In this document: piece by piece, positions 9,261 through 22,497 of the stretch | Layout: the number at the start of each line of letters is the position of its first letter | How positions within the stretch are numbered: position 1 is the stretch's first letter | Assembly: GCF_000317555.1 (NCBI RefSeq) | Contig: NC_019745.1 | Span: 2,170,001-2,234,000 of the forward strand | Source of the DNA: Gloeocapsa sp. PCC 7428 | GTDB lineage: Bacteria; Cyanobacteriota; Cyanobacteriia; Cyanobacteriales; Chroococcidiopsidaceae | Direction of reading: 5' to 3' | Length of the DNA stretch: 64,000 nucleotides | The notes under the pieces: model-generated | Database searches by the model: none | What the model was told of the DNA's origin: nothing | Seen by the model: the letters and a program-made list of their open reading frames with translations, nothing else | Made by a program: the position numbers and the translations under genes

Positions 9261-9434
9261 ATGAATCTGCAAGACAACGTTAGCGATGTGCAAGAGCCAA
9301 TCGATACAGCACCAGCAGAAGTTAGGCAAATCATTGAACAGGTATGGAAGTTAGAAAAGAGCAGACTTGATAAAAAAAGTAACAGTCATATTAATGATGA
9401 TATTTTGCGGATTGTCAAGGAAGCGGTGCGATGA
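9261..9434 (+). CDS. Small Dnd-cassette protein, 57 aa
   Basis: A short open frame starting ATG at 9261 and ending TGA at 9432-9434. Its stop overlaps the start of the DndD-like ATPase gene (ATGA), a strong sign of translational coupling. The product is charged and probably helical: MNLQDNVSDVQEPIDTAP, then VRQIIEQVWKLEKSRLDKKS, then NDDILRIVKEAVR. No cysteines, membrane segment or known domain is seen. By position it may be a small partner or specificity subunit of the ATPase. Function unknown. Confidence 0.7.
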   Translation: MNLQDNVSDVQEPIDTAPAEVRQIIEQVWKLEKSRLDKKSNSHINDDILRIVKEAVR

Positions 9435-11500
9435 AGCTAACTTCAATTCGGCTGTGTAACTTTCGTTCGTTTTATGGCAAAACACCGGAAATTGCACTTG
9501 CAGGCGGAACAAATCGCAATACGACAATCGTTCACGGTAACAATGGTGCAGGGAAAACGAGTTTCTTAAATGCCTTTACGTGGGTACTATACGAGAAGTT
9601 TAGTGCGGCGTTTGCGTCAGCTGAACAACTTGTCAATAAACGGGCGATTGCCGAAGCAAATATCGGAGAAGCAATCGAATGCTGGGTAGAAATATTTTGG
9701 GAACATGATAACAAACGCTACCGCGTTAAACGCGAGTGTCGCGTGTATAAAAACGATACTAACTTTGATGCGGGTAAAACCCAGTTATTTATGCAAATAG
9801 CTGGCGATGATGGACGATGGTATCCTTCACCACAGCATCCAGAAGACGTGATCAATCAGATTCTACCAGTTAGCTTGCATCAGTATTTCTTTTTCGATGG
9901 TGAGCGAATCGAACAAATTGTGCGATCGGATAAGAAAGCAGAAATTGCTGAAGCAACCAAAATCTTTCTAGGCGTGAAAGTCATAGATAACTCGATCAAG
10001 CACCTAAGTGAAGCAAAAAAAACGCTAGAAAATGAATTAAAAGCGATTGGTGATGCCCAAACCAAACAACTTTTGAGAGAACGGCAAAAGATAGAAATTG
10101 AGATAGAACAAATTACACAGCGACAAAGTGAGATTACTCAAGAGTTAGAATATCAAAACACTTTTAAAAAAGAAACAAGTCACCGTCTACGCGAACTTGC
10201 TGCGGCGCAAGAATTACAGGAAAGACGGCAAAATTTAGAAAACCAGAAAACAACAAATCAAGAAGAACTACGAAAAAGTAAAGAAACTCTCAAGAAAACG
10301 ATTTCTACACGCGGTTACAGTGTACTACTACCATCAACGACGAATCTATTTCGGGAAATTATTGCAGATTTAAAGAATCGCGGCGAGTTAACCGCAGGAA
10401 TTTCGCAAGAATTTGTGCAAGAAATACTGCGCGATCGCCGTTGTATTTGTGGTACGCAACTAGACGATGGAAGTGATGCGCGTCAAAACGTCAGCAACTT
10501 GTTAAATCAAGCTGGTTCTTCTGCTGTCCAAGAAACTGTTATTCGGACAATCGCCCAAGTTGACGAAATTGACAAACAAGCGATCGCTTTTTGGGAAGAT
10601 GTCGATCGCGAACAATTACGTATTGGTCAATTAAGAGAAAGTATATCGCAAATTGAAGCTGAGTTAGATAATATTCAAGAACGTTTGCGTAAAGATCCCA
10701 GCGAAGAAATTCGCAATTTGCAACTTCGATTGGATGATATTGACAGAAAAATTGCTGAATTAAATATTGAACGCGGTGAAAAGAATCAGCGTGTTGATAG
10801 TTTAAAAACTGAAGCTGCTGAATTAGATAAGCAAATTGCCAAACAAAAATTTAATGAAGAAAGACAAGCATTAGCGCAACGACGTATTGCTGCGACTTTA
10901 GATGCTATTGAGCGATTAAACGAAGTTAAACAACGCCAAGAGAAGCAGTTTCGCTTGCAATTAGAAAAACGCATTCAAGAAATATTTAATGAAATTTCTA
11001 TTACGCCCTATATTCCTAAAATTAGTGAAAAATACGAACTCACATTAATAGAAAATACTTCTGGTGTAGAAGCACCTGTTGCGGCTTCTACAGGTGAAAA
11101 TCAAATACTTAGTTTATCATTTATTGGTAGCATCATCGACAAAGTGCGCGAGTGGAGTGAAAGAAAAATGTTGATGGTAGCTGATGGTAGTACATTCCCC
11201 ATAGTGATGGATTCGCCGTTTGGAAGTTTAGATGAAACTTATCGGCGACAAATTGCCAAGATTATTCCACAATTAGCCAATCAGTTGATTGTATTAGTGA
11301 GTAATACCCAGTGGCGCGGAGAAGTGGAAGCAGAAATGACTTCAAGAATTGGTAGGGAATATGTCCTAACTTACTATTCTTCTAAACCAGATTGCGAAGA
11401 GGATACGATTGAAATTGCAGGACAAGAGTATCCTTTAGTTAGACAAAGTCCTAATGAGTTTGAGTATACTGAAATTCTTGAGGTAAATCGCAACAATTGA
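9431..11500 (+). CDS. DndD-like Rad50/SMC-type ATPase
   Basis: A 689-residue ABC/Rad50-like ATPase related to DndD but distinct from the canonical dndD at 18431. The Walker A motif is GNNGAGKT (36-43) after the RecF-like opening LCNFRSFYG. A FFFDGERIEQIV motif follows near 155. Long coiled coils (about 195-290 and 370-520) flank a short hinge bearing Cys338 and Cys340 (RRCICGTQL), which could bind metal or form a hook. The signature-like STGENQ (553-557) and Walker B region MDSPFGSLDE (Asp594) close the ATPase. It is coupled to the 57-aa gene and followed by Dnd-associated protein 4. Its role is inferred as a phosphorothioation-linked DNA-acting motor or sensor. Confidence 0.8.
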   Translation: MKLTSIRLCNFRSFYGKTPEIALAGGTNRNTTIVHGNNGAGKTSFLNAFTWVLYEKFSAAFASAEQLVNKRAIAEANIGEAIECWVEIFWEHDNKRYRVKRECRVYKNDTNFDAGKTQLFMQIAGDDGRWYPSPQHPEDVINQILPVSLHQYFFFDGERIEQIVRSDKKAEIAEATKIFLGVKVIDNSIKHLSEAKKTLENELKAIGDAQTKQLLRERQKIEIEIEQITQRQSEITQELEYQNTFKKETSHRLRELAAAQELQERRQNLENQKTTNQEELRKSKETLKKTISTRGYSVLLPSTTNLFREIIADLKNRGELTAGISQEFVQEILRDRRCICGTQLDDGSDARQNVSNLLNQAGSSAVQETVIRTIAQVDEIDKQAIAFWEDVDREQLRIGQLRESISQIEAELDNIQERLRKDPSEEIRNLQLRLDDIDRKIAELNIERGEKNQRVDSLKTEAAELDKQIAKQKFNEERQALAQRRIAATLDAIERLNEVKQRQEKQFRLQLEKRIQEIFNEISITPYIPKISEKYELTLIENTSGVEAPVAASTGENQILSLSFIGSIIDKVREWSERKMLMVADGSTFPIVMDSPFGSLDETYRRQIAKIIPQLANQLIVLVSNTQWRGEVEAEMTSRIGREYVLTYYSSKPDCEEDTIEIAGQEYPLVRQSPNEFEYTEILEVNRNN

Positions 11501-15047: not shown

Positions 15048-16700
15048 ATGTCTACACCACAACAGAAACCAAAAGAAGCGGAAACTTCGCGTCTACAGCC
15101 CTTTGGGCATCCTGTGGCGGGCGGCGTCCGTCACGATGCGAAAGTTTTCAAGACAGGCGATCAAGCACGGACTGTAGCAGACTTGGTGGCAGATATTCAA
15201 GCTCTCACCGCTGAAATTCAAGAATTATACTGTTTAGACGAGATACCTTGGTGTATAGGCTATAGTGGTGGGAAAGATAGCACCGCGACTTTACAACTCG
15301 TGTGGAATGCGATCGCCTCTCTCCCGCCTGAAAAGCGAACTAAAACAATTCACGTTATCACGACAGATACGTTAGTAGAAAATCCAATTGTTGCAGCTTG
15401 GGTTAGTCGTTCACTTCAACAAATGAAACAAGCAGCGCAACAACAAGGAATGCCGGTTGAACCACATTTACTTTATCCCGCAGTTAAAGATACATTTTGG
15501 GTCAATTTAATCGGTAAGGGTTATCCTGCGCCGCGTAACCGATTTAGATGGTGTACTGAACGGTTAAAGATTCAACCCTCGGATAACTTTATTCGGGCAA
15601 TGATTCGCGCAAGTGGAGAAGTTGTACTTGTACTGGGTACGCGCAAAAGCGAAAGTGTAAAACGCGCAACCAATATGGCAAAACATCGTGAGTGGCGCAT
15701 ACGCGATCGCCTCAACACAAATCCCAACCGACCTAACTCACTTATTTATCTCCCAATTGAAGATTGGCATACCGATGAAGTTTGGATCTATCTCAACCAA
15801 TGGCAAAATCCTTGGGGATATAGCAACAAAGATTTATTCACTATGTATCGCGGCGCAACCGCAGATAATGAGTGCCCGCTTGTTGTCGATACTTCTACCC
15901 CTAGCTGTGGCGATTCGCGGTTTGGCTGCTGGGTTTGCACAATGGTGAGTAAAGATAAATCGATGGAGGCGATGATCCAAAACGATGAAGAGAAAGAATG
16001 GATGCAGCCGTTACTCGATATTCGGAATGAACTTGATGTCGCAGACGATCGCGACAAACGAGACTTTCGCCGCATCTGGGGACAAGTGCAACTTTTTGAA
16101 CGCAATGTCGATGGTGAAGTTTCTGTAGAACCGATTCCAGGCCCTTATACCAAATACTGGCGCGAGTATTGGTTAAAAAAAGTGCTACAAGCACAAACAC
16201 AAATTCGCCACACTGCGCCAGAAAATATGCGCGATATTACCTTAATTACACCAGAAGAACTCAGTGAAATTCGTCGGATTTGGTTAGAAGACAAGCACGA
16301 ATTTGACGATAGCTTACCGCGAATTTATCAAGAAGTTACAGGCGAACCTTTTCGCGATCCCCGTCCAGGAAGCGATCGCACTTTACTTGGTAGCGACGAG
16401 TGGGCTGTACTCGAAGAAATTTGCGGCGATGACGCGATGCATCTTGAACTAATGGCAAAGCTACTCGATACCGAACGCCAGTATCGCACAATGGCGCGTC
16501 GTAATGGCATTTTTGAGGCGTTAGAGAAGTGCTTTGAAACGAGTTCGCGTTCCAAAGAAGAAGCGATCGCCAACGCCCACTACAAACGCGACTTGAAAAA
16601 CGCTGCCGAACAAGGCAATATCGAAACCGTCAAGCAGTTAACCTGGGCTAGCTTAAAATTCCAAGCTACAGCCGGAGATGAAAAGTTACTAAGTGATTAA
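15048..16700 (+). CDS. dndC: DNA sulfur modification protein DndC
   Basis: A 550-residue PAPS-reductase-like protein. The PP-loop SGGKDS lies at 73-78 (GYSGGKDSTATLQLVW), and the cysteines in RFRWCTERL, NECPLVV, TPSCGDS and FGCWVCTMV fit the iron-sulfur ligands of DndC. It activates the DNA backbone with ATP and passes sulfur during phosphorothioation. An AGAGAAGGA ribosome site precedes the ATG at 15048. Residues about 11-36 are encoded by a 79-bp palindromic repeat inserted near the N-terminus; family-like sequence resumes at ARTVADLVADI. A strong hairpin follows the stop. No dndA (cysteine desulfurase) is next to it. Confidence 0.95.
   Translation: MSTPQQKPKEAETSRLQPFGHPVAGGVRHDAKVFKTGDQARTVADLVADIQALTAEIQELYCLDEIPWCIGYSGGKDSTATLQLVWNAIASLPPEKRTKTIHVITTDTLVENPIVAAWVSRSLQQMKQAAQQQGMPVEPHLLYPAVKDTFWVNLIGKGYPAPRNRFRWCTERLKIQPSDNFIRAMIRASGEVVLVLGTRKSESVKRATNMAKHREWRIRDRLNTNPNRPNSLIYLPIEDWHTDEVWIYLNQWQNPWGYSNKDLFTMYRGATADNECPLVVDTSTPSCGDSRFGCWVCTMVSKDKSMEAMIQNDEEKEWMQPLLDIRNELDVADDRDKRDFRRIWGQVQLFERNVDGEVSVEPIPGPYTKYWREYWLKKVLQAQTQIRHTAPENMRDITLITPEELSEIRRIWLEDKHEFDDSLPRIYQEVTGEPFRDPRPGSDRTLLGSDEWAVLEEICGDDAMHLELMAKLLDTERQYRTMARRNGIFEALEKCFETSSRSKEEAIANAHYKRDLKNAAEQGNIETVKQLTWASLKFQATAGDEKLLSD
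15078..15156 (+). repeat. 79-bp palindromic repeat in frame in dndC (copy A)
   Basis: Ends are imperfect inverted repeats (GGAAACTTCGCGTC against GATGCGAAAGTTTTC). It matches copy B at 21646-21724 with 5 differences in 79 bases. It encodes ETSRLQPFGHPVAGG..RHDAK in the same frame as copy B. All three frames of the sense strand are open through it, and all three of the complement carry stops. Confidence 0.9.
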
Positions 16701-16726
16701 AATCACTGCATATCATTATAATTTTG

Positions 16727-16754
16727 ATACAGTTCAGATAAGACTGAACTGTAT
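16727..16754. terminator. Hairpin between convergent dndC and PT-repeat gene
   Basis: Perfect 11-base arms ATACAGTTCAG (16727-16737) and CTGAACTGTAT (16744-16754) enclose a 6-base loop. It lies just after the dndC stop and before the convergent gene's stop at 16782, as expected for a two-way terminator. No clear T-run follows. Confidence 0.65.
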
Positions 16755-16781
16755 ACGACAACTAAGATTGATAGCGACTAC

Positions 16782-17300
16782 TTACCAAAGAGCGCGAACG
16801 CCTTCACCAGCGGGTTGGGTGGTTCCAGCAGCGCCGTTATCGTCAAGGTCGTTATCATCATTGTTATCAGTGTCTGTATCGGTTGGTGCTCCTACTCCAG
16901 GGGTAGTTGTATCAGGAGTTGTTGCATCTGGTGTTGTCGTTCCTGGGACAGTCGGATCAGTCCCTAAACCAGGTGAGGTTGCATCTGGGGTCGTCGTTGT
17001 TGGTGCAGTCGGGTCGGTAGGTTGTCCTACGCCTGGGGTCGTCGTTGTTGGTGCAGTCGGGTCGGTAGGTTGTCCTACGCCTGGAGTTGTTGTTCCTGGT
17101 GCAGTTGTGGTTCCTGGTGCAGTGGGGTCAGTAGGTTGTCCTACACCTGGAGTGGTTTGTGCAACAACGCTTTGAATGAAATTAGATTGATTTAAAGCGG
17201 GGACAGCAAGGATTGCAGCGCCAGCAAATCCTAAAAAACCTGTAAGCTTGAGCAGCATTTGGCGTTTCCGTGCTTGCATTGATTTCTCCTCAAAATACAC
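16782..17300 (-). CDS. Secreted proline/threonine-repeat protein
   Basis: A 172-residue protein with an N-terminal signal peptide or anchor (KLTGFLGFAGAAILAVPAL) followed by a low-complexity region of 16-residue units of the type TPGVGQPTDPTAPTTT. The tail is acidic (DTDTDNNDDNDLDDN). No enzymatic domain. Such PT/DP-rich stretches are typical of cell-wall or surface linkers. It lies on the opposite strand between dndC and dndD, next to the L,D-transpeptidase gene, so an envelope role is suggested. Its relation to DNA sulfur modification is doubtful. Confidence 0.7.
   Translation of the reverse strand: MYFEEKSMQARKRQMLLKLTGFLGFAGAAILAVPALNQSNFIQSVVAQTTPGVGQPTDPTAPGTTTAPGTTTPGVGQPTDPTAPTTTTPGVGQPTDPTAPTTTTPDATSPGLGTDPTVPGTTTPDATTPDTTTPGVGAPTDTDTDNNDDNDLDDNGAAGTTQPAGEGVRALW
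16987..17082. repeat. 48-bp tandem repeat coding for PT units
   Basis: Two copies of a 48-base unit beginning GGGGTCGTCGTTGTTGG at 16987 and 17035 follow each other, with a more diverged copy downstream to about 17155. The period is 16 codons, so copy-number change keeps the frame. Confidence 0.8.
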
Positions 17301-17575
17301 ACTAAGGACAAGGCGAACTATCGAATAAATGTCATTAAGTTTCGCCTGAGGTGGGTTCGTAAAAGTCGAACCAAGAATTTTTACTCAGTTTAGGGAGATG
17401 TGTTAAAAATTTTCTCTTCCTTGAGTCGTAGTTTGTGCTTTTGATACGTTTTGTTTATCAATGCTAATTGACGTGTAATACTATGATTTTTTTACTTACA
17501 CAACCCAAGTTGAATGACTAAATCAAGTACTTTTTTATACACTACAAAGTAACGAGGAACTATGTGATAATTGAG

Positions 17576-18127
17576 CTATTCCACAACTGTGACAAGAGTG
17601 CCTAACCTCACTTGACTGAATAACTCCTCAACATCTTTGTTGTACATCCGAATACAGCCGTGAGAAGCTGCTGTACCTACTGTTTCAGAATTAGGAGTAC
17701 CATGAAAACCGATCGAATTTCTCCCATCACTCCAAAACCCAATCCAATACGATCCTAGAGGATTTTCAGGATGTCCCCCTGGAATTCTCTCATCCGTTAA
17801 GGGACTAATCCAAGTAGGATTTTTTAACATTTGACCTACGCGAAAATTACCAGTCGGAGTTTCCCAGCCAGGACGACCGACTGCAATAGGATAGCTTTTA
17901 ATCGGTGTTTCTCCCTGATACAGAGTGACCTTACGGCTATTTAGCTGAATCTTTAACCTTAAAGGCGGAGTCACGCGATTGACTGGCTGATTAGTAGGGG
18001 GTTGAGAGATAGCCGATTGGATGACAGATGGCTGCGATTCTGATAAATTTTGCTGATGAGCAATCTGGTGAGTAGCGACATTGATTGCTACGACTACACC
18101 CGCCACTGCAAATAGTTGCTTGATCAT
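17576..18127 (-). CDS. L,D-transpeptidase (YkuD domain)
   Basis: A 183-residue YkuD-family enzyme that would crosslink peptidoglycan or attach proteins to it outside the cytoplasmic membrane. The N-terminus (IKQLFAVAGVVVAINVA) is a signal anchor. The domain starts at LRLKIQLNSRKVTLYQGE. The catalytic region is IGFHGTPNSETVGTAASHGC with the active Cys in SHGCIRM, then NKDVEELF. With the PT-repeat gene on the same strand it splits the dnd genes into two blocks. Codon use looks like the rest of the genome. Confidence 0.92.
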   Translation of the reverse strand: MIKQLFAVAGVVVAINVATHQIAHQQNLSESQPSVIQSAISQPPTNQPVNRVTPPLRLKIQLNSRKVTLYQGETPIKSYPIAVGRPGWETPTGNFRVGQMLKNPTWISPLTDERIPGGHPENPLGSYWIGFWSDGRNSIGFHGTPNSETVGTAASHGCIRMYNKDVEELFSQVRLGTLVTVVE

Positions 18128-18430
18128 CTGAAAAATCTAGTCTCTGGGTAAAAACAACTATTTTATCTAGAAAGCAGCAAACTTAGCCATAAAACATCTG
18201 ACTTAGGTTATAAAACCAAGGCGATTATTTGTTAAAATGACTTTCTTACAAGTAATTTACTCGATCATGAAGAACAGGTAAATCGCACCAAACTTTAATA
18301 ATATTAATTGGGGCTATGAGTATTTTTTACAGTATTGAAGTCATTAAATATGAGATGAATATCAAATTCTGATAAGCATTTATCAACTATTACACTCTAG
18401 CTCTAAAATTATAATATTCAATATAAAAAA
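18128..18430. other. AT-rich spacer upstream of dndD
   Basis: 303 bases with no gene. A TATAAT at 18410-18415 lies only 15 bases before the dndD GTG and has no good -35 partner. No convincing promoter or ribosome site is visible, so the dndD promoter is unresolved. Confidence 0.5.
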
Positions 18431-20410
18431 GTGATATTTATTGAACTTGTACTACAAAATTTTGGTCCTTATCTAGGACGACAAGTTATTAATTTGCGTC
18501 CTAAAGAAGATGAGCGGTTTTGCCCGATTATTTTATTTGGTGGGATGAATGGTGGCGGAAAAACTACGCTTATGGATGCAATTCGTCTTGCTTTATACGG
18601 ACATCGCGCTCAATGTTCTACGCGGGGTAACTTGAGTTATCCTGACTTTTTAACACAATCAGTTAACCGTTACACTGCCATTGGCGAAGAAACTGCAATT
18701 GAACTAGCTTTTGAAAATATTTTAGATAATGTCCAAGTTGAATTTCGGATTAAACGTAGTTGGACTAAAAACCCTCGTAATGGTAAAGATACATTGGGGA
18801 TTTTAGTTGACGATTGGCCTGATAGTGCTTTGGCTCAAATTTGGGATGAACGAATTGAAGATTTACTTCCTTTAGGAATTTCAAATTTATTTTTATTCGA
18901 CGGCGAACAAGTTAAAGAGTTAGCCGAACAAGATGTACCTACTCCAATGGTTGTTGAAGCAATTCGCTCTTTGCTTGGGTTAGAATTAGCTGAACGATTG
19001 GCAACAGATATAGAAATTTTAGTGAATCGGCGACGCAAACTTATTGCCGATAGTCAAGCACTCATAACTTTAGAAGATATTGAACAAAAACTGAATCATC
19101 AGCAAAAAGAATATCAAATTGCCAAAGACCATTTAGCAACAATTCAAGATAAATTAACTTATGCGCAAAAGCACCAGCAAGAAGCTTCAGATAAATTTAT
19201 TTTAGAAGGTGGTAAAATTGCGGCTGAACGCAGTCAACTAGAAATTCAGTTATGTTATCAGCAAGAAGCAGTCACACGCCACCGTGATGCGCTTACTGAA
19301 TTAGCTAGTGGAATTTTACCCTTGAGTTTGATATCACCGCTTCTTGTTCAAGCGCATACTCAAGTACAACAAGAATACCGACAACAGCAAGCACAAGTGA
19401 ATAAAGATGTATTATCTGAGCAAGAGCGAAAATTTTTGCAATACGTTACTAAAATAGGATTAGACAGTGAGCAATTTGAAAAAATTAAATTATTTTTCGA
19501 GCAAGAAATTGAAGCTTTAAACCAAGATATTCAGTTAAAAGAATTGTGGCTATTAGCTGATGAAGAAAGTATTTTTCAACTTAATCAAATTCTTACCCGT
19601 GATTTAGCAGATTCGCAGTCTTTAGCAAAAAAACAACTTAATAATCTCAAAATTCAAGAAGAAAATTTAGCAGCAATTGAGAGACAACTAGCAGTCGCAC
19701 CTGCACCAGAAGTTTACGAACAACTAGGTGATGCAGTTAAATTGGCTCAAAGTGAACTTGCTAACGTTAAAGCTGCTTATGAGTTAGCAAGAAGACGATG
19801 CGACGAATTAGCAACAGTTATTGAAAATACGAAAAAAGAGTTAGCACAATATAGCGAGGAAAATATTGATAGAAAAAATGACGAACATATTATTACCGCA
19901 TCAACTAAAGTACAAACAACACTGAAACTATTTCGAGAAAAACTAACGTTGCGTAAACTAAATCAATTAGAGTCTGTGATTACAGAGTGTTTTTTATACT
20001 TGCTGCATAAGTCGGATTTAGTGCATCGAGTTGCAATTGATACAGATACTTTTAGTCTTTCGCTTTACGATTTTCAAGGACAATTAGTACCAAAGCATCG
20101 TCTTTCTGCGGGAGAAAAGCAATTACTCGCGATCGCCCTATTGTGGGGATTAGCACGTGTCTCAGGGCGCAACCTCCCAATTGCGATTGATACACCATTA
20201 GGGCGACTCGATTCTTCGCACCGCAATAACTTAGTTGAACGTTACTTTCCTTCCGCGAGTCACCAAGTCATGCTGTTTTCTACAGATACTGAAATCGGTA
20301 AAAATGAAGTTAAACAACTCCGTGCTAACGATGCGATCGCCCGCGAATATCTTCTAAAATACGATTCAGCAAAACGTTGCACCATTATCGAACCAGGTTA
20401 TTTCTGGTAA
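18431..20410 (+). CDS. dndD: DNA sulfur modification ATPase DndD
   Basis: A 659-residue canonical DndD, an SMC/Rad50-like ATPase required for phosphorothioation; it is thought to open or nick DNA for sulfur insertion. The opening ELVLQNFGPYLG and Walker A GGMNGGGKT (37-45) are typical. A LFLFDGEQVKELAE motif follows, then two coiled-coil stretches (about 205-290 and 390-500). The signature LSAGEKQLLAIALLWGLAR (about 558-576) and Walker B IDTPLGRLDSS (about 585) close the domain. The start is GTG at 18431, where the family homology begins. dndE follows 122 bases later. Confidence 0.95.
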   Translation: MIFIELVLQNFGPYLGRQVINLRPKEDERFCPIILFGGMNGGGKTTLMDAIRLALYGHRAQCSTRGNLSYPDFLTQSVNRYTAIGEETAIELAFENILDNVQVEFRIKRSWTKNPRNGKDTLGILVDDWPDSALAQIWDERIEDLLPLGISNLFLFDGEQVKELAEQDVPTPMVVEAIRSLLGLELAERLATDIEILVNRRRKLIADSQALITLEDIEQKLNHQQKEYQIAKDHLATIQDKLTYAQKHQQEASDKFILEGGKIAAERSQLEIQLCYQQEAVTRHRDALTELASGILPLSLISPLLVQAHTQVQQEYRQQQAQVNKDVLSEQERKFLQYVTKIGLDSEQFEKIKLFFEQEIEALNQDIQLKELWLLADEESIFQLNQILTRDLADSQSLAKKQLNNLKIQEENLAAIERQLAVAPAPEVYEQLGDAVKLAQSELANVKAAYELARRRCDELATVIENTKKELAQYSEENIDRKNDEHIITASTKVQTTLKLFREKLTLRKLNQLESVITECFLYLLHKSDLVHRVAIDTDTFSLSLYDFQGQLVPKHRLSAGEKQLLAIALLWGLARVSGRNLPIAIDTPLGRLDSSHRNNLVERYFPSASHQVMLFSTDTEIGKNEVKQLRANDAIAREYLLKYDSAKRCTIIEPGYFW

Positions 20411-20448
20411 CGAGTTAGTGGAAGTGAAAAAGTGTGGCAGGTGTGGGA

Positions 20449-20476
20449 GAGATTTGATGATTATTGCTCTTTAATA
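20449..20476. repeat. Dispersed repeat between dndD and dndE, copy 1
   Basis: GAGATTTGATGATTATTGC followed by TCTTTAATAC matches, in the opposite orientation and with one indel, the stretch at 46024-46052 after narB. Both copies continue into ACCCGCCTACCC-type sequence. Confidence 0.6.
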
Positions 20477-20532
20477 CTCAATAACCCAACTACCCGCCTA
20501 CCCTACTACCCTACTATCCTGCTAGCTCTATT

Positions 20533-20919
20533 ATGGAACCACCAATTGATCGCATTCATTTATCACAAACGGCAAAAGACCAATTAACTAAACTTAAACG
20601 CATCACTAAAATTGACCAGTGGAATATTTTGTGTCGCTGGGGATTTTGTCGATCGCTTGCTGAACCTGCTATTCCGTCACCAATACCAATTCCTGCGGAT
20701 AGTAACGTAGAGATGACGTGGCGCGTGTTTGGTGGAGATCTCTCCGATATACTAGCGATCGCTTTGAAACAACGCTGTCACAATGATGGCTTGGGTACTG
20801 ACAAGGAAACGCTAGCAACACAGTTTCGCCTGCACTTGCATCGCGGGATTGGTTATCTAGCTGGTGATCCGAATATCAAGAAAATTGAAGATTTAATTGA
20901 ATTAGCTTTGCCGAAATGA
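20533..20919 (+). CDS. dndE: DNA sulfur modification protein DndE
   Basis: A 128-residue DndE, the small helical protein of the modification complex; a homologue has been shown to form a tetramer that binds nicked double-stranded DNA. Family sequence is clear: IHLSQTAKDQLTKLKRITKI, WNILCRWGFCRSLAEP, MTWRVFGGDLSDILAIAL and the C-terminal FRLHLHRGIGYLAGD. Length fits. It lies between dndD and the associated methyltransferase on one strand. Confidence 0.94.
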   Translation: MEPPIDRIHLSQTAKDQLTKLKRITKIDQWNILCRWGFCRSLAEPAIPSPIPIPADSNVEMTWRVFGGDLSDILAIALKQRCHNDGLGTDKETLATQFRLHLHRGIGYLAGDPNIKKIEDLIELALPK

Positions 20920-20973
20920 AGCTTTCATTTGCCAAGTTTGCTTCTATAATCAAACACAAAAGTTTGATTTGTC

Positions 20974-22497
20974 ATGGAAGCTCTGGAAATTGAACGTCAT
21001 AGAGCCGCGATCGCGCGTACTGATTTATCACGTCCGGTGCGATTAGCTATAGAATGGGCAATCGTAAATAACGATACCACGTTCTTTGATTACGGTTGCG
21101 GCTACGGTGGTGATGTTGAGCGCTTAGCAGCGCGTCATTACACCTGTGCGGGGTGGGACCCGTACTACCGTCCTGATACGCCGCGTACGGCTGCGGATAT
21201 TGTTAATTTGGGCTATGTTCTCAACGTCATTGAAGACCCCGAAGAACGCCGCGAAGCGCTGTGTCAAGCTTGGAACCTGACACAAAAAGTTTTAATTGTT
21301 GCGGCCCAAGTTTTAATTCATGACCGCAGCAATGCCAAAATTGCTTATGGTGATGGCATTGTCACTCGACGCAATACGTTCCAGAAATATTACGAGCAAG
21401 AAGAATTAAAATTATACATCGATGAAGTTCTGCAAGTTGATGCTGTCCCTGTCGCGTTAGGAATTTACTTTGTCTTTCGCGATGACACTGAAAAAGAAAG
21501 CTTTCGGGCTTTACGCTTTCGTTCGCGGAGTTTGACACCGCGCGTCCGCACGCCGAGTAAGCGGTTTGAAGATTATCAAGAACTCCTAATGCCACTGATT
21601 AATTTTGTTACCGAACGTGGCAGATTACCCGTTAAAGGTGAATTAGCGGAAACTTCGCGTCTACAGCCCGTTGGGCATCCTGCGGCGGGCGGCTCCCGTC
21701 ACGATGCGAAAGTTTCCAAGACAGCGGCACAAACCGAGATATTACTCGAATTTGGGACTTTTCGCCGCGCTTATAATGTGATTTTGCAAGCTACTGATGA
21801 AGCCGAGTGGGATGCGATCGCGTATCGTCGTTCGTTGGATATTTTAGTTTATCTTGCGTTAACGCAGTTTGGTAAACGTCCTGGATTTAATCAGCTTGCG
21901 CCTGAACTTCGTCAAGACATCAAAGCCTTTTTTGGTACGTATCAAGAAGCTTGCCAAGTTGCGGATAAAATGCTGTTTAGCTTGGGAAAACCTGGCGTTG
22001 TTGCTCAAACGTGCAAGCAAAGTAAAATTGGTAAACTCTTACCAACAGCATTATATGTCCATGTTTCGGCGTTACCCGAACTCGATCCGTTACTGCGAAT
22101 ATATGAAGGTTGCGCTAGCCGCACGATTGGACGCATGGATAATGCGACATTAGTTAAATTTTATACAGATAAACCCAAAATATCGTATCTTTTCTATCCA
22201 GATTTCGACACACAGGCGCATCCAGCTTTACACACAAGTATGCAAATTGACTTGCAAAACCTCAGTGTGGTCTATCGCGAGTATGACACTGTGGCAAATC
22301 CGCCAATTCTGCATCGTAAAGAAACTTTTGTGACACCGAGTTACCCGCTGTACGAAAAATTTGCGAAATTGACGCGGCGCGAAGAAAAATTAGGGTTATT
22401 CAAGAATACGCGCACTATCGGAACACGCGACGGTTGGCAAAAATGGTTAGAGGAAAAAGGTGTGGAGATTAAAGGCGATCGCATCATTTCCAAATGA
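20974..22497 (+). CDS. DNA phosphorothioation-associated putative methyltransferase
   Basis: A 507-residue protein of the family named DNA phosphorothioation-associated putative methyltransferase. The SAM-binding motif is FFDYGCGYGGDVERLA (about 37-52), followed by GWDPYYRP and VNLGYVLNVIEDPEERREAL. The C-terminal half carries conserved YLFYPDFDTQAHPAL and VVYREYDTVANPP. Whether it methylates DNA, and how this relates to sulfur modification, is unknown. Residues about 225-250 come from a 79-bp palindromic repeat in frame; the family-like sequence runs from RGRLPVKGELA into EILLEFGTFRRAY around it. Confidence 0.92.
   Translation: MEALEIERHRAAIARTDLSRPVRLAIEWAIVNNDTTFFDYGCGYGGDVERLAARHYTCAGWDPYYRPDTPRTAADIVNLGYVLNVIEDPEERREALCQAWNLTQKVLIVAAQVLIHDRSNAKIAYGDGIVTRRNTFQKYYEQEELKLYIDEVLQVDAVPVALGIYFVFRDDTEKESFRALRFRSRSLTPRVRTPSKRFEDYQELLMPLINFVTERGRLPVKGELAETSRLQPVGHPAAGGSRHDAKVSKTAAQTEILLEFGTFRRAYNVILQATDEAEWDAIAYRRSLDILVYLALTQFGKRPGFNQLAPELRQDIKAFFGTYQEACQVADKMLFSLGKPGVVAQTCKQSKIGKLLPTALYVHVSALPELDPLLRIYEGCASRTIGRMDNATLVKFYTDKPKISYLFYPDFDTQAHPALHTSMQIDLQNLSVVYREYDTVANPPILHRKETFVTPSYPLYEKFAKLTRREEKLGLFKNTRTIGTRDGWQKWLEEKGVEIKGDRIISK
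21646..21724 (+). repeat. 79-bp palindromic repeat in frame in the Dnd methyltransferase (copy B)
   Basis: Same element, orientation and reading frame as copy A in dndC (15078-15156), with 5 differences in 79 bases. It encodes ETSRLQPVGHPAAGG..RHDAK. Two copies within 6.6 kb, both in Dnd genes and both in frame. Confidence 0.9.

Follow-up and report, generated by a model that had tools for sequence, protein, structure and literature searches.

Palindromic inserts that keep the reading frame are known chiefly from bacteria with an obligate intracellular life. In cyanobacteria, Nezha is a MITE, and SDRs are reportedly small structured modules of 21-27 nt that occur as nested insertions and within heptamer repeats and minitransposons. 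The Rickettsia palindromic elements (RPEs) have a length of 105-146 bp (PMC2229807); as characterized in passages of PMC2229807 and PMC10969869, they are palindromic, lie in frame in unrelated conserved genes, where the added peptide is tolerated, and are also intergenic. Palindromes of Wolbachia appear in a title cited by PMC2229807. This kind of element is already known, from Rickettsia. Some GTAG/CGTC REPs are described as lying inside ORFs of several species, DNA repair genes included (Di Nocera 2013, PMC3733652), and GTAG-type REPs are reported from cyanobacteria (PMC3733652). MITEb and MITEe of Anabaena PCC 7120 are listed among ORF-bearing MITEs (PMC10969869), and the SDRs of Nostoc and relatives (Elhai 2008) are discussed in PMC4390886. 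A literature search found no cyanobacterial case of protein-coding palindromes; Elhai 2008 lay outside its coverage.

Element copies in dndC and the methyltransferase gene

A repeat search of the window (i.e. the whole 64-kb stretch of Gloeocapsa sp. PCC 7428 DNA that was analyzed) detected positions 15077-15156 and 21645-21724 as a direct pair of 80 nt with 94% identity. A nearly identical match of 80 nt within 64 kb is not a chance event, and with these 80 nt as query against the genome (E <= 0.01) the two copies were the only matches. The first lies in dndC (15048-16700, + strand, 550 aa; TIGR03183, E = 7e-220), near the N-terminus (residues 11-36). The second lies in the gene for a DNA phosphorothioation-associated putative methyltransferase (MT; 20974-22497, + strand, 507 aa, including the 26 contributed by the insert), identified as dnd_rel_methyl (TIGR04096, E = 3e-212) by a profile match in two stretches, the best at 5-231. 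According to the same window search, dndD (18431-20410, + strand; TIGR03185, E = 1.8e-202) and dndE (20533-20919, + strand; TIGR03184, E = 3.3e-39) contain no member of this repeat family.

Comparison with empty sites fixed the net insertion at 78 nt (15078-15155 in dndC and 21646-21723 in MT, both + strand), across which the copies show five differences. A preliminary description had given 79-bp copies differing at five positions; the number of differences stands, but the extra G is a matching flanking base. Its account of copies sharing orientation and frame and adding about 26 residues held throughout: both start on a codon boundary (offset 30 in dndC, 672 in MT), share codon phase 0, and contribute 26 codons each (AETSRLQPFGHPVAGGVRHDAKVFKT and AETSRLQPVGHPAAGGSRHDAKVSKT). 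The dndC insert lies inside the translated part, since the ATGTCTAC start is upstream of the insertion site in all six aligned dndC genomes. All antisense frames had been said to contain stops, which is true of the dndC copy (three of three), but one is open in the MT copy (SWKLSHRDGSRPPQDAQRAVDAKFP). This open frame, together with family members lying antisense in genes, contradicts the earlier claim that only one orientation can survive.

When the coding strand was folded as RNA, the palindrome was clear (z = -2.85 for dndC, -1.81 for MT), and the opposite strand folded no better than shuffles (z = 0.20 and 0.08, respectively). In the MT copy, the 5′ stem arm GGAAACTTCGC (21648-21658, + strand) pairs in the fold with GCGAAAGTTTCC at 21706-21717; this 3′ arm and the asymmetric tail AAGACA together occupy 21706-21723 (+ strand). 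Each copy contains a 27-nt inner module, ACAGCCC.TTGGGCATCCTG.GGCGGG at 15095-15121 in dndC and its counterpart at 21663-21689 in MT (both + strand).

Both sites were aligned across six genomes, i.e. the source genome (G000), G085, G102, G067, G119, and G017. The MT site is filled in G000, G085, and G102 and empty in the other three; G102 has a 54-bp form of the element at the same position, with TGG aligned in place of the inner module. The dndC insert is missing from four of the six: G102, G119, and G017 are plain, and G067 has a different 36-nt insert. Because three of six genomes are without the MT insert and four of six without the dndC insert, the two repeats are insertions and not ancestral protein. 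Insertion-free forms, which the preliminary description had proposed to look for among relatives, thus exist for both genes. It had also named the same peptide in relatives without the repeat as the sign of an ancestral segment; at these sites, close relatives are without both DNA and peptide.

A dispersed family of cyanobacterial palindromes

The suggested search for the element in its own genome and in other cyanobacteria revealed a dispersed family. The dndC and MT element is a mosaic member of this family, which has fixed ends GCGGAAA...TTTCCAAGACA, stems that are swapped yet compensated, and interchangeable loop modules. Terminal inverted repeats are present (GGAAAS.. / ..STTTCC), with the asymmetric tail AAGACA. 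TTTCCAAGACA was found in 64 of 68 distinct members, most of which had been collected by a pattern requiring TTTCCAAGACA. For the 68 distinct elements, stem complementarity, out of 7, was 6.07 within and 4.75 between elements (reached in 0 of 401 shuffles). CGTC is present inside the loop region of some element forms. Parts of the 27-nt inner module are also found by themselves in other records from cyanobacteria.

Elements are 49-79 nt long, and the net insertion, where determined, is 51, 54, or 78 nt. Among 95 copies, length divided by three left remainder 0 in 37, remainder 1 in 49, and remainder 2 in nine. The named genomes contain at least 80 family stretches; among the matches listed, 79 of 80 record titles are cyanobacterial and nine of 80 copies lie in long ORFs. 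From 82 matches collected, L163 and L217 had been judged non-palindromic and were dropped before the stem test and the count of nine in 80. Coding insertion is not a general rule of the family everywhere, because so few of the listed copies lie in long ORFs and lengths are not generally multiples of three. A strict pattern yielded 13 copies in seven of 291 genomes (none for the reversed control pattern); some genome searches scored at most three candidates per genome, and copy counts there are lower bounds. The pattern CGGGCATC..GCGGCGGG, which has C where the copies have T, gave no match in the source genome. Six loci searched against Rfam gave no hit on the element; what matched was a tRNA at one edge of L102, and two miRNA families that scored below their gathering thresholds. 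On plasmids, blastn with the MT copy matched five records, each over less than 80% of the query, and searches with the 26-residue peptide or a sister variant gave no match; a Nostoc 51-mer plus one base matched 11 records. Viral contigs contributed two stretches, of which L216 is a palindromic copy and L217 is not.

Five copies were recognized in the source genome, too few to demonstrate present activity there. Four lie in frame in genes, namely dndC, MT, a histidine kinase, and an NRPS condensation domain, the latter two antisense to the gene. The kinase insert, located between the PAS and HisKA matches, is 51 nt long in four of ten aligned loci and corresponds to an exact 51-nt gap in the remaining six; among the five closest genomes having the gene, G119 alone is empty. 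It is more conserved than its flanks in several genome pairs, e.g. identical at 51 of 51 positions between G085 and G102 (on each side, flank identity is 0.88-0.89 for 150 nt and 0.83 for 1,200 nt). Such conservation is not predicted by pure neutral decay. In GltB, the compared stretch measures 680 nt in G032 and G074 and 602 nt in G108 and G152 (net 78). MnmE and a prolyl oligopeptidase showed gaps at the element when aligned to PDB sequences; no solved structures of DndC or MT were found.

The sister variant is represented by 62 full copies in four genomes after removal of matches below 50 nt and of duplicate flanks; in 34, the matched length shows 100% identity to the query. Within long ORFs, counted stop to stop and not as called genes, lie 35 of the 62, in 26 distinct ORFs. 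A Pfam family was detected in 21 of the 22 host ORFs scanned (of 35). Although all three sense frames are open, 24 of the 26 distinct host ORFs are antisense. Of the two in sense orientation, L314 is doubtful, as it is overlapped by a longer antisense ORF. Sorting genic copies by frame and orientation, as had been proposed, uncovered in-frame copies in several unrelated genes and in both orientations.

Origin of the pair and mode of movement

The repeats are very probably copies of a small non-autonomous mobile cyanobacterial palindrome inserted into coding DNA. That they are instead an ancestral protein segment lost by relatives has next to no probability. The MT site is indeed filled in three genomes of two genera, but in the nearest empty genomes the MT match is interrupted at residues 225/251 with no intervening DNA, the match is likewise interrupted there in many distant ones, and distant genomes G108, G246, G176, and G258 have unbroken MT matches spanning 24-26 codons less than the query. 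MT homologues matched in 244 of 291 genomes of the order (E <= 1e-60), and among the matches listed no deep orthologue carries the insert peptide. The same DNA, moreover, also occurs outside long ORFs (G102:C17). Hardly more credible is that DndC and MT recruited a shared functional tag, e.g. a motif for docking or regulation, as the same frame and peptide in two proteins of one pathway might suggest. All five G000-G085 substitutions in the inserts, five changes in all, are nonsynonymous, against 22 nonsynonymous and 111 synonymous in the flanks (Fisher p = 2e-4). No trace of purifying selection is visible in the insert peptide. In addition, MT of G102 carries the short form while its dndC has no insert, and both genes are insert-free in G119 and G017, yet dndC, dndD, dndE, and MT are all present in these three genomes; in other genes and frames, the same DNA family yields unrelated peptides.

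A stronger contender, though still somewhat improbable, is that only the MT copy is a true mobile-element insertion and the dndC copy arose by gene conversion or microhomology, without double transposition. The two sole matches in the genome lie 6.5 kb apart and differ at two to five positions in G000 and G085, and GGCGTC in MT of G085 and both dndC copies, as opposed to GGCTCC in MT of G000, resembles exchange between copies. However, beyond the family ends the similarity extends for only one to two flanking bases, as expected of an element with defined boundaries rather than of a random conversion tract, and G102 contains a further full-length copy (88%) at an unrelated place. A classical REP/REPIN moved by a RAYT is unlikely. 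The hairpin and the lack of a long target duplication would suit it, as would Y1_Tnp genes in all six genomes (RAYT and IS200/IS605 not being distinguished), but the hairpin foot has no GTAG or CGTC tetranucleotide, the ends being GCGGAAA and TTTCCAAGACA, and no element adjoins any of 15 Y1_Tnp matches. Within 1.5 kb on each side of these 15 loci in six genomes, no pair of element ends was found; single end-like strings occur near six.

For the mobile palindrome, the MT insertion is read as the older one because G102 is filled at the same site. The dndC copy was probably made later from the MT copy, locally, by gene conversion or short-range transposition, before the split of G000 and G085. 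The occurrence of two insertions in one pathway, which had seemed striking, needs no special reason: one probably arose by local copying of the other. Frame-keeping copies (51, 54, and 78 nt) would survive as nearly neutral in tolerant places, such as the N-terminal tail of DndC, the internal MT site, and the kinase between PAS and HisKA.

In MT and the kinase, net insertion equals element length, leaving room for duplication of no more than one base (G); at the sites of known empty state, no target duplication >1 bp was seen. This lack of longer duplications, the seamless empty sites, and the asymmetric tail on the hairpin would suit a single-strand (HUH-type) or RNA-templated mechanism more readily than a transposase leaving long target duplications. 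The filled and empty states of MT and the kinase do not simply track the trees, so that the account also needs precise loss, repeated insertion at a single nucleotide, or recombination; with branch supports as low as 32, the MT tree is compatible with one gain or with two. Tentatively, and with the balance rather against it, the family might comprise mosaic palindromes that are still spreading, harmless in housekeeping and DNA-modification genes, able to exit without trace, and strongly oriented to the gene, which would point to an insertion step coupled to transcription or a single-stranded state, or to selection on the peptide.

Comparison with known systems

A cyanobacterial family with sister genomes holding filled and empty gene versions would make two old questions testable, namely the means by which in-frame palindromes move and their role, as neutral passengers or as raw material from which proteins can be built. 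For annotation, length differences in cyanobacterial DndC, methyltransferase, MnmE, and GltB can be repeat insertions.

The element resembles MITEs in being short and non-autonomous with inverted repeats, and ORF-bearing or intragenic MITEs are known, cyanobacteria included; it differs in that no target duplication >1 bp and, in a search covering Y1_Tnp, no parent insertion sequence was found. With SDRs it shares the cyanobacterial hosts and small structured modules, its 24-27 nt modules being similar to SDRs as these are reportedly described, but SDRs are said to measure 21-27 nt and the element 49-79 nt. Like GTAG/CGTC REPs, it forms small hairpins, some within ORFs; unlike them, it has the hairpin foot GC/GGAAA and no Y1_Tnp neighbour among 15 loci. 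Compared with RPEs, it is shorter (49-79 nt versus 105-146 bp), cyanobacterial, and equipped with the tail AAGACA and mosaic loops. The likeness to RPEs, noted from the outset, is one of kind, drawn by description and not by sequence: both are palindromic repeats found in frame in unrelated genes and also between genes, adding a peptide that is tolerated, and the insert behaves like protein-coding palindromes.

The repeat pair in dndC and a methyltransferase gene

The preliminary description of a palindromic element in frame in two Dnd genes was borne out. A repeat search of the window paired 15077-15156 with 21645-21724 (80 nt, 94% identity), and NCBIfam identified the hosts as dndC (15048-16700, plus strand) and the gene for a DNA phosphorothioation-associated putative methyltransferase (MT; 20974-22497, plus strand). 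Alignment to relatives showed that each insertion has a net length of 78 nt (GCGGAAACTTCGC...GCGAAAGTTTCCAAGACA; 15078-15155 and 21646-21723), lies in codon phase 0 and contributes 26 residues. As had been stated, neither copy has a stop in any sense frame; stops in all three antisense frames were confirmed for the dndC copy, but one antisense frame of the MT copy is open. RNA folding gave z-scores of -2.85 and -1.81 for the coding strand of the two copies and 0.20 and 0.08 for the opposite strand.

The minus strand between dndC and dndD holds a YkuD L,D-transpeptidase gene (17576-18127) and an internally repetitive ORF (16782-17300). A second DndD-like ATPase (9431-11500; TIGR03185 score 174.9 bits, under the cut-off of 245.85) is encoded before the DndB-like genes.

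Six genomes of the order-level set of 291, all with a dnd cluster, were compared by alignment: G000 (the genome of the window), G085, and G067 from one genus, and G102, G119, and G017 from its sister genus. MT, matched in at least 244 of the 291 genomes (E <= 1e-60), has the 78-nt insert in two of the six (G000 and G085) and a 54-nt form at the identical nucleotide position in G102; the site is empty and scarless in G067 (e.g. GGTGAATTAGCTGCACAA), G119, and G017. In dndC, only G000 and G085 hold the 78-nt insert, and G102, G119, and G017 are empty. The refuting condition named in the preliminary description, relatives with the peptide but not the DNA repeat, did not turn up among the matches listed, and the empty sites in both genes show that the peptide is not ancestral protein sequence. 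At almost the position of the window's dndC insert, in the N-terminal region, dndC of G067 (locus L095) has a different in-frame insert, 36 nt long and with 6-bp inverted arms (CCAGTT/AACTGG).

Members and anatomy of the family

Five family members were recognized in G000: those in dndC and MT, one in a histidine kinase gene (contig C1:3018867-3018917, antisense to the gene), one, again antisense, in an NRPS condensation domain whose Pfam match extends across it (contig C2:20222-20272), and a fifth at C1:2326444-2326497 that is not within a long ORF. The 80-nt query itself detected two copies in this genome. Across the order, with at most three candidates scored per genome, it gave at least five full-length matches in 3 of 291 genomes (two in G000, two in G085, and one, outside long ORFs, in G102); within the taxonomic family, 3 of 19 genomes matched (E <= 0.001). 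Querying with G102's 54-nt form uncovered shorter relatives. With a strict pattern of the ends, 13 copies were located in 7 of the 291 genomes (reversed control pattern: 0) and at least 80 matches in named genomes. Among the matches listed, 79 of 80 were cyanobacterial by title (Nostoc, Komarekiella, Calothrix, Rivularia, Richelia, Brasilonema, Scytonema, and others, including Gloeocapsopsis crepidinum LEGE 06123); the sole non-cyanobacterial title (L163) is not palindromic.

The ends are constant, partly because the search pattern demands them. The stems are variable yet complementary: 6.07 of 7 positions pair within elements vs 4.75 between them (68 distinct elements), a within-element value reached by none of 401 shuffles. 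The core of the 54-nt form (CGTCTTGGCGGTTCCCGTCACGATGC) matches base for base that of a sister variant, a related palindrome with different stems found in G032, G074, G108, and G152. The TGG of the 54-nt form has its counterpart in the 78-nt form in a 27-nt piece (ACAGCCC.TTGGGCATCCTG.GGCGGG), and parts of this module occur standalone elsewhere. The loops are modular, and the element of the window is thus a nested mosaic. A 24-25 nt core (CGTCTTGGCGGTTTCCGTCACGAT) occurs alone in other contexts of G229 (L069, L107, and L108), in one case flanked by the arms of a different palindrome. Wherever the empty state is known, insertion length equals element length; any target duplication is therefore at most one base. 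Element length is a multiple of three in 37 of 95 copies and thus not as a rule across the family.

Host genes, orientation, and selection

Most copies in the named-genome sample lie outside long ORFs (defined as 200 aa or more, with 40 aa or more on either side of the copy), 9 of 80 being inside. Three scanned Nostoc ORFs among these hosts encode DUF2887 proteins (L170, L171, and L173), and a copy in G181 lies within a prolyl oligopeptidase gene. For the sister variant, 62 full copies were examined in G032, G108, G074, and G152, which belong to another family; 34 had 100% identity to the query along the stretch that matched. Copies (L270-L333) are often embedded in GATTTTGGATTTT-type repeats. 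By the same rule, 35 of the 62 are in long ORFs vs 138 of 196 random positions, so that coding DNA is avoided only mildly. A Pfam family was found in 21 of the 22 ORFs scanned among the 35; these 21 include glutamate synthase, PurL-like, CobN/Mg-chelatase, MnmE, Mfd-like, CobB/CobQ-like amidotransferase, penicillin-binding, NurA, and FMN-dependent dehydrogenase proteins. The glutamate synthase stretch compared measures 680 nt when filled (G032 and G074) vs 602 nt in G108 and G152; two remoter genomes have 608 and 590 nt, hence small indels are present as well. In G152 this gene (L336) lacks the palindrome and contains a short KSKIQN-coding piece that resembles the repeats flanking filled copies and may be a footprint.

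When their flanks are roughly compared, the 35 ORF copies reduce to 26 distinct ORFs, with the sister variant antisense to the gene in 24 and sense in two (one doubtful). The variant has no stop in any sense frame and a stop in one antisense frame; stops do not account for the antisense excess.

Between G000 and G085, the MT and dndC inserts together show five nonsynonymous and no synonymous substitutions, compared with 22 and 111 in the flanks (Fisher p = 2e-4); on this small count of five, there is no sign of a constrained peptide. The kinase insert is better conserved than its flanks for several genome pairs (G085 vs G102: 51/51, flanks 0.88-0.89 over 150 nt and 0.83 over 1,200 nt), which speaks against a purely neutral reading.

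History and comparison with known elements

The MT site is common to both genera and the dndC site confined to G000 and G085, suggesting that the MT insertion is probably the earlier of the two and that the dndC insert was copied locally from it. The 51-nt kinase insert is found in G000, G085, G102, and G017, with an exact gap in G119, G174, G045, G216, G161, and G243. Such distributions could reflect either scarless departure of the element (from MT in G067, G119, and G017, and from the kinase gene in G119), double entry at one nucleotide, or acquisition of empty alleles by recombination; the trees of MT (weakly supported) and the kinase do not fix the order of gain and loss. Nucleotide identity of G000 to G102 or G067 is 77% for dndC and 90-91% for MT, which points to a probable exchange of dndC alleles. 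Y1_Tnp genes are present in all six genomes; none of their 15 loci contains the element, and lone end-like strings occur at 6 of the 15.

Going by a reference title, Wolbachia reportedly has protein-coding palindromes. No cyanobacterial family of this type was found in titles and abstract openings, a survey with few subscription papers and with the most relevant work, Elhai 2008 on small dispersed repeats, outside its scope. Portions of published accounts describe protein-coding palindromes in Rickettsia (PMC2229807, PMC10969869), the likeness drawn in the preliminary description, as well as REPs inside ORFs in several species (PMC3733652) and ORF-bearing MITEs of Anabaena PCC 7120 (PMC10969869). 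Given the Rickettsia precedents and no cyanobacterial case found, the kind of element is known; what may be new is the occurrence of this cyanobacterial family within genes.
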